Assembly: GCF_002243045.1 (NCBI RefSeq)
Contig: NZ_MBKP01000004.1
Location: 62,001 to 126,000 of the forward strand
Length of the DNA stretch: 64,000 nt
DNA from: Methanolobus psychrotolerans
GTDB lineage: Archaea > Halobacteriota > Methanosarcinia > Methanosarcinales > Methanosarcinaceae
Reading direction: 5' to 3'
Position 1 is the stretch's first letter. Each line of letters opens with the position of its first letter. Positions 44,335-46,470 of this stretch are shown here, piece by piece. Both the position numbers and the translations under genes were made by a program. Below the pieces are notes generated by a model. That model was not told the DNA's origin. It was given only the letters and a program-made list of their open reading frames with translations, and did no database searches.

Positions 44335-44440
44335 GATCAGTTTCAACTTACCAGTTTTTGCCTGTAAGTCCTGGAATACACTCCGTTCTAATCGCGAAAA
44401 AGACAGGAATACTCTTCATTTGAGTATTCCAATCTCATCC

Positions 44441-45175
44441 CTATTCTTGATCGAAATAGTCAACAGTTGATGATACTGAACTGACTATTACTGTAGAATT
44501 ATTCCTGATAACGTACTCGCTCAGCCCGACATCACTGTCGGGATCTCCCCAATCGTATGTGTATCCCAGTCTGCTCCACGGGTACTGATCATAGGTGGTA
44601 TTTTTAAGGGAATTGAACCATTCTGCATGTTCCTGTGAGACGTTCTCATAAAATTCAAGTTGGGACTGAGTATCTGTGATCTCAGGATCAGGAGATGGTC
44701 TGAAAAGGTCATCCGGTCTGACCCACATTTCTACAAAATACTCATTCCCGTCCTCATAAGGAAGGCCGATGAGCTGTTCCAGTCTGAGTGTTAGATCATC
44801 ATCCTGGATATCATTTTGCTCAACGAAGTCTTTCAACTCAGGAATGACCATCACCCATGTGTCTCCCCACCATGTGGACACGTTTGAATTGACAGTGTAG
44901 CTCTCAGGATACTTGGTCCATGTGACAACAAGGACATATTTGTCACCGGACTCTTCCATCCATTGAAGTTCAGTATTAGACTCGATTATCGGGGACAGTT
45001 CTGTGTATATCTCATCCTCTTCAGCTACGATTGCATCTTTTATTGCAGTCCTGTACATTAGTTCAAGGTCTGTTATTTCAGATGGGAATGTATCCTGATA
45101 ATCATCAAGAGCACATCCTGCAGATAGTATAGCCAGCAGATATGGATAATACTAACAATAAATTGTATTTTTCAT
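44441..45175 (-). CDS. lipoprotein with in-frame TAG in the signal peptide
   Basis: The soluble part (ATG at 45056-45058 onward, 205 residues) is acidic, Trp-rich and unlike any family I know. Upstream in the same frame lies a textbook lipobox LLAILSAGC, and further a start ATG 45173-45175 with AAAGGA eight bases ahead and K2. Between them, codon 8 is TAG (45152-45154). Read through, the signal peptide is 20 residues with Cys21 as the lipid site. In pyrrolysine-using Methanosarcinaceae the TAG may be decoded as pyrrolysine; alternatively a pair of frameshifts or decay explains it, since another frame reads LLLVLSIS. Gene follows the TPR lipoprotein gene by 83 bases. Confidence 0.6.
45152..45154 (-). 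other. in-frame amber codon inside lipoprotein leader
   Basis: TAG at codon 8 of the frame that joins the ribosome binding site and ATG to the lipobox. No ATG, GTG or TTG lies between it and the lipobox, so without readthrough the signal peptide cannot be made. Confidence 0.6.
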
Positions 45176-45258
45176 TTATTTTTCCTTTGTTTTTCTTTTA
45201 TGGTATTGGTCTGCGTTCGTTAATCGAGTCTCTAATGAATGCTTATGATCGTTTTAGC

Positions 45259-46470
45259 CTAAGAGCTAAGTTCTCCTGCTTTTTTATAGCATTCATTTGC
45301 TTCATCGGACCTGCCAAGTTCGTTAAGAGTATCTCCTTTTCCTTCCCATGCACCGGCATATTCCGGATCGATCTCTATTGCATTATCGTAACATTGGATT
45401 GCCTCGTCATATCTACCAAGTTTGTAGAGTGCATACCCTTTTTCTTTCCATGCAGAGGCAAATTCCGGATAGATCTCTATTACTTTATCGTAGCATTCTA
45501 TTGCTTCATCATATCTTTCAAGTATACCAAGCATATACCCTTTATTTCCACATGCATAGGCATCTTCCGAATTAATTTCTATTGCTTTATCAAAGTGGTT
45601 GATGGCTTCATCATATCTCTCGAGTTTGTAAAGTGCATATCCTTTTCCTATCCATGCATAGGCAAATTCTGGATAGAGTTCTATTGCTTTGTCATAGTAT
45701 TGGATTGCTTCATCATATCTTTCGAGTTCAATAAGTGCATCTCCTTTTCCTTCCCATGCATAAGCATCTCCCAGGTTGAGCTCTATTGCTTTCTCATAGG
45801 ATTCTATTGCTTCGTCATATCTGCCGAGTTCAATAAGTGCATATCCTTTTCCTATCCACGCAAAAGCAAATTCCGGATTGAGCTCTATTGCCTTCTCATA
45901 GCATTCGAGTGACTCGTTGTTCTTGTTTTCGAGGTATGAATAAGATACTCCTTTGTTATACCATGGCTCATAATTATCCGGGTCAGAGTTTACCCTTTTG
46001 TCAGAATATTCTATTGCCTTCTCAAAGTATTCTGATGATTCATTATACCCGTAATTATAATACAGGACCATTCCTTTTCCTTCCCATGCTTCATCAAATT
46101 CCGGATCGATCTCTATTGCTTTGTCGTAGCATGCGTCTGCTTCGTCATAATTATAAAGTTCGAGAAAAGAGTCGCCTTTGTAAACCCATGCATCCATGTT
46201 CTCGGGCTCTATCTCTATTACTTTATTGTAACATTCGATTGCTTCATCATACCTGTTAAGTGCGTAGAGGGATTCTCCTTTATAGTTCTGGGCATCGGTA
46301 TAGTATGGATCATCTGCCTGTATGCTATCCGCCGATGCAATTGCTTCCTCATACATGCTTGCCTTGTAAAGTTCACCCGTGTTTGGAACCTGCTGTTCCT
46401 CTTCGATGCATCCGGCAGAAAAACCCGCTATCAATAAAATGATCAAAATAAATGTTTTTACTAATTTCAT
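45259..46470 (-). CDS. TPR-repeat lipoprotein
   Basis: A 403-residue exported protein. The leader MKLVKTFILIILLIAGFSAGC ends in a lipobox at Cys21. The rest is about ten tetratricopeptide repeats with the frequent pattern ALYKLERYDEAI and KAIELYPEFAYAW; neighbouring repeats are almost identical, so the array grew by recent duplication. TPRs form a protein-binding superhelix on the outside of the cell. The neighbouring 44441-45175 lipoprotein is a candidate partner. Confidence 0.9.
   Translation of the reverse strand: MKLVKTFILIILLIAGFSAGCIEEEQQVPNTGELYKASMYEEAIASADSIQADDPYYTDAQNYKGESLYALNRYDEAIECYNKVIEIEPENMDAWVYKGDSFLELYNYDEADACYDKAIEIDPEFDEAWEGKGMVLYYNYGYNESSEYFEKAIEYSDKRVNSDPDNYEPWYNKGVSYSYLENKNNESLECYEKAIELNPEFAFAWIGKGYALIELGRYDEAIESYEKAIELNLGDAYAWEGKGDALIELERYDEAIQYYDKAIELYPEFAYAWIGKGYALYKLERYDEAINHFDKAIEINSEDAYACGNKGYMLGILERYDEAIECYDKVIEIYPEFASAWKEKGYALYKLGRYDEAIQCYDNAIEIDPEYAGAWEGKGDTLNELGRSDEANECYKKAGELSS

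Follow-up and report, generated by a model that had tools for sequence, protein, structure and literature searches.

Does the signal peptide of a putative lipoprotein of Methanolobus psychrotolerans contain pyrrolysine (Pyl), or has its gene lost the reading frame? The gene lies in a stretch of 64,000 nucleotides, here called the window, to which all coordinates refer unless another sequence is named, and its eighth codon is TAG. The original prediction offered two explanations for this codon: a Pyl residue in the hydrophobic core of the signal peptide, which would couple export to the supply of Pyl, or a frameshift. Here we compare the gene with its orthologs at the DNA level and examine how TAG is used in the rest of the genome.

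Results

Layout of the gene

The gene is encoded on the minus strand, which had not been specified before; the plus strand read from 44441 contains many stops across the interval. As described in the original prediction, a ribosome binding site, an ATG followed by a lysine codon (AAA, codon 2) and the lipobox LLAILSAGC share one frame, which TAG interrupts at codon 8. The LLLVLSIS noted earlier in another frame is also there, and that frame reads EKYNLLLVLSIS. The features, in order along the minus strand, are as follows.

45183..45186, minus strand: probable ribosome binding site AGGA, 7 nt 5' of the ATG, predicted from the upstream sequence
45175, minus strand: start codon ATG, read directly from the sequence
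45113..45175, minus strand: disrupted leader of 21 codons, from the sequence and the ortholog alignment
45163..45169, minus strand: site of a 1-nt deletion relative to the orthologs, exact base ambiguous, from pairwise alignments with G007, G002 and G014
45152..45154, minus strand: in-frame TAG, codon 8; the orthologs use these bases, in another frame, for Leu-Leu-Val/Ile codons
45138..45164, minus strand: 27-nt stretch AATTTATTGTTAGTATTATCCATATCT, which G002 has letter for letter as its codons for NLLLVLSIS; in the window gene neither the ATG nor the mature part shares this frame
45131..45140, minus strand: site of a 2-nt deletion relative to the orthologs, exact bases ambiguous; the frame of the mature part is restored here
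45113..45115, minus strand: Cys21 codon of the lipobox, the end of LLAILSAGC (codons 13-21)
44444..45115, minus strand: intact mature part, 224 amino acids from Cys21, conserved and under purifying selection
44441..44443, minus strand: terminal TAG stop, up to which the mature frame is open
44406..44430, minus strand: weak terminator-like stem-loop with a T-rich tail just 3' of the gene (the consensus scan found 1 against 0.7 expected)

The leader codons are ATG AAA AAT ACA ATT TAT TGT TAG TAT TAT CCA TAT CTG CTG GCT ATA CTA TCT GCA GGA TGT, and reading through the TAG would give MKNTIYC-(TAG)-YYPYLLAILSAGC. Two other ways of starting translation were considered and rejected. The NLLLVLSIS frame offers no ATG, GTG or TTG upstream of its hydrophobic stretch as far back as the previous stop, and the first downstream start in the mature frame, the ATG at 45058, would give a leaderless product.

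Upstream on the same strand lies a gene for a TPR-repeat lipoprotein (45259-46470); the ortholog of G002 likewise directly follows the coding sequence for the C-terminus of such a TPR protein. The mature protein itself has no relative in Pfam, NCBIfam or the PDB, and no plasmid-borne relatives were found. AlphaFold run with three sequences gave an unusable model (mean pLDDT of 35) because there were too few sequences. A protein of the bacterial MAG Candidatus Tritonobacter lacicola (L014) shows about 40% identity and has a signal-like start, MKSTISKIVVLAIFVGLGC; export of this domain is therefore not peculiar to methanogens. This exported bacterial protein, encoded at L014:4432-6123, has the same uncharacterised domain followed by ARNPSPLARDLW-type repeats and matches nothing in Pfam or NCBIfam.

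Orthologs and the origin of the TAG

The gene is present in six other genomes of the Methanosarcinaceae, four from the same genus (G007, G002, G014 and G015) and two from another genus of the family (G028 and G041). The mature parts are 75-82% identical, and because the 224 residues have orthologs in six genomes the window gene is not a chance ORF. The closest ortholog is that of G007; the nearest named one is that of G014 (L013), which belongs to Methanolobus sp. Soudan_27, a MAG. In all six an uninterrupted leader of 22-24 residues stands directly 5' of the mature part (MKNSNLLLIFSISMVAILSTGC, MKNGNLLLVLSISLVAIVSAGF, MKIRNLLLILSISLVFIVSAGF, MKKINLLLLLSLSLAAILYVGF, MNKTNLLLILSIPLVLLALLSAGF and MNKSNLLLILSIPLVLLALLSTGF). 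The Methanolobus orthologs (L013, G007, G002 and G015) share the mature protein with the window gene and differ from it in having an intact leader. Two short contigs of G041, C1 and C3 (L008 and L011), match identically and at equal offsets, which probably reflects a duplication in the assembly. Only remnants of the gene, in two frames and with an internal TGA, are found in G038 (C120; L010 and L012), from another genus of the family, and the gene seems to decay in this second lineage too.

Alignment of the window leader with that of G007 shows two gaps in the former, one of 1 nt near codon 4 and one of 2 nt near codon 14. Neither gap is divisible by three, several orthologs are intact, and the window leader measures 63 nt against 66 nt for the shortest orthologous leaders. 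Between the gaps, 27 nt are identical to those of G002, which read AAT TTA TTG TTA GTA TTA TCC ATA TCT (NLLLVLSIS). In the ATG frame of the window these bases are shifted by one position and become ATT TAT TGT TAG TAT, so that the TAG consists of the end of the Leu codon TTA and the start of the Val codon GTA. What is conserved around the TAG is thus the NLLLVLSIS frame and not the frame in which Pyl would be read. None of the six orthologs has an in-frame TAG, all having sense codons, and none carries a Lys-like or charged residue at this position. When the orthologs are themselves read one position off, five of the six run into a stop at the place of codon 8 (TAG once, TGA twice, TAA twice), and the resulting peptides resemble that of the window, for instance KTVIYC(stop)YYPYL in G002 and KIATYY(stop)YFPYLWW in G007. 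A stop at codon 8 is therefore the usual outcome of a frameshift in this leader. Which stop it is, here TAG and not TGA or TAA, is an accident of the third base of a Leu codon adjoining the first base of the next codon. Taken together, the alignments indicate with little doubt that the TAG arose by frameshift through two small deletions. Sense codons with a one-base shift had been named in advance as incompatible with Pyl; the alignment returned exactly these, plus a second shift of two bases that restores the frame.

The 3' end of the gene reads GAA TAG GGA TGA (44435-44443, minus strand; TGA at 44437-44435). In all six orthologs the frame goes on for two more codons and stops at the equivalent TGA, so the ancestral frame of the window gene contains two TAG codons.

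The read-through leader had been credited with a perfect length, a description that does not hold. Even the shortest orthologous leader exceeds it by one residue, and its hydrophobicity is far lower: the core has a mean Kyte-Doolittle value of 1.08 when Pyl is treated as Lys, against 2.39-2.76 in the five orthologs for which it was calculated, and the best 11-residue stretch of the leader reaches 1.63 against 2.66-3.14. Since LLAILSAGC is intact, the leader might still function, though poorly. The lipobox is SAGC in the window, where the leader is out of frame, and STGC in G007, the only one of the six intact ortholog leaders with the Cys; the other five end in Phe (SAGF, STGF or YVGF). With Cys in only the window and G007, lipidation would therefore not be a conserved property of the exported protein.

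Mutation or consensus error

The two deletions are probably a real mutation in the organism. The main competing explanation is a local error of the consensus or assembly, in which case the true leader would be intact with 22 codons and both gaps would be artefacts. We consider this unlikely, although it deserves some weight: the genome is a draft (3.16 Mb in 106 contigs), the mature part is intact and constrained, and the homologous leaders of six other genomes are intact. However, the contig is nearly free of frameshifts. Of the 139 genes compared with their orthologs in G007, 129 keep a single frame over the full length, and one is a frameshift candidate. Moreover, two independent errors inside about 30 nt would be unusual, and the deletions lie outside any long homopolymer. 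A possible frameshift relative to G007 is located at about 8762 of the window (G000:C81:70762, plus strand), near the 3' end of a gene.

Every pairwise comparison of the mature part with the window gene gives a dN/dS between 0.15 and 0.28. Amino acid changes on the window branch and the G007 branch number 20 versus 12 or 14 with G002 or G014 as the outgroup, 14 versus 14 with G028 and 14 versus 18 with G015, which amounts at most to a slight excess on the window branch. As the mature part is still constrained and shows little branch excess, any inactivation would be recent.

Pyrrolysine and the use of TAG

A profile search of the genome identified PylS (E=9.8e-114). From their order and sequence we take the adjoining ORFs after pylS to be pylB, pylC and pylD and a ramA-like gene. 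A tRNA-Pyl gene with the anticodon CTA is present at G000:C88:6974-7003 (L056 ~1468-1539), on a different contig from pylSBCD; in the vicinity of pylS, ARAGORN found no tRNA-Pyl. With pylSBCD and tRNA-Pyl in hand, the objection foreseen in the original prediction, that the pyl genes could be absent, does not apply. There are also two mtmB genes, each with one internal TAG, so Pyl is genuinely used in this organism.

In 420 kb of the genome, TAG terminates 34 of the 331 non-overlapping ORFs of at least 150 amino acids (about 10%). For 12 TAG-ended genes, among them the leader-disrupted gene, a comparable ortholog was available in the 400 kb of G007 used for the comparison, and all 12 end no more than 5 residues from the TAA or TGA end of the ortholog. 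The distance to the next in-frame stop is similar for TAG-ended and TAA- or TGA-ended genes. The genome does not bear the marks of a genome-wide code in which TAG means Pyl: TAG is not avoided, and TAG-ended genes are not extended relative to their orthologs. TAG here serves as an ordinary stop and is read as Pyl in particular genes. A limited literature search found no paper on an archaeal code of the TAG=Pyl type.

It is conceivable that the double frameshift is tolerated: insertion of Pyl at UAG would yield a certain amount of full-length protein, which would still be exported and lipidated despite the low hydrophobicity of its leader, MKNTIYC-Pyl-YYPYLLAILSAGC. We regard this as improbable. 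The Pyl machinery and the Pyl-type mtmB genes would allow it, the two deletions add up to three bases and leave a conserved mature part in frame, the sole stop in the shifted stretch is a codon that the organism can decode, and the terminal TAG sits two codons before the conserved TGA position. On the other hand, two indels sum to a multiple of three in about one third of cases by chance, TAG acts as a stop genome-wide, the hydropathy of the leader falls well below that of the orthologs, and no ortholog has TAG or a charged residue at the site. Slightly less probable still is the reading that Pyl decoding rescues the double frameshift, with some exported lipoprotein still being made and the machinery buffering mutations that would otherwise inactivate the gene.

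The Pyl genes of the Methanosarcinaceae (mtmB, mtbB and mttB) share with the window gene an in-frame TAG in a host with Pyl machinery. The difference is that the TAG of mtmB lies within a long conserved frame, whereas that of the window leader occurs in a single genome and derives from out-of-frame Leu-Val codons. That Pyl evolved as a residue of the signal peptide and made export dependent on its supply, as originally proposed for the hydrophobic core, is hardly credible even with the pyl genes present: no ortholog has TAG or a Lys-like residue there, the deletions account for this TAG base by base, and TAG is an ordinary stop. Programmed ribosomal frameshifting from the ATG into NLLLVLSIS and back to LLAILSAGC, two pieces that are both conserved in sequence, can practically be dismissed, as it needs two opposite shifts inside about 30 nt, no canonical slippery heptamer was seen at either place and the orthologs require no shift.

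Discussion

The reading we prefer is that a conserved and normally exported protein of the Methanosarcinaceae has had the sequence of its signal peptide thrown out of frame by the loss of 1 nt and of 2 nt; because the two losses compensate each other, the ATG and the mature part still share one frame. The roughly nine codons between the deletions are ancestral NLLLVLSIS DNA read in the wrong frame, in which TTA GTA yields the TAG. Translation from the ATG would then mostly end at codon 8, and little or no exported protein is expected; the gene may be a recently inactivated or a leaderless allele. A full-length product, if there is any, would require incidental insertion of Pyl at UAG. The deletions relative to the orthologs, the origin of the TAG and the intactness of the mature part are shown by the sequence comparison.

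The finding is an ordinary one. Small indels, a premature stop and an intact, constrained downstream part are what frameshift-disrupted genes, whether recent pseudogenes or leader mutations, have in common with this one. It differs from the usual case in that the lengths of the two indels add up to a multiple of three, which leaves the mature part in frame with the start.

For an archaeon that decodes Pyl, this means that orthologs should be aligned at the DNA level before an in-frame TAG is called pyrrolysine, and this caution holds even when the pyl genes are present and the frame looks good on either side of the TAG. If rescue by Pyl were nonetheless true, it would be a case of an expanded genetic code buffering the damage done by a frameshift.
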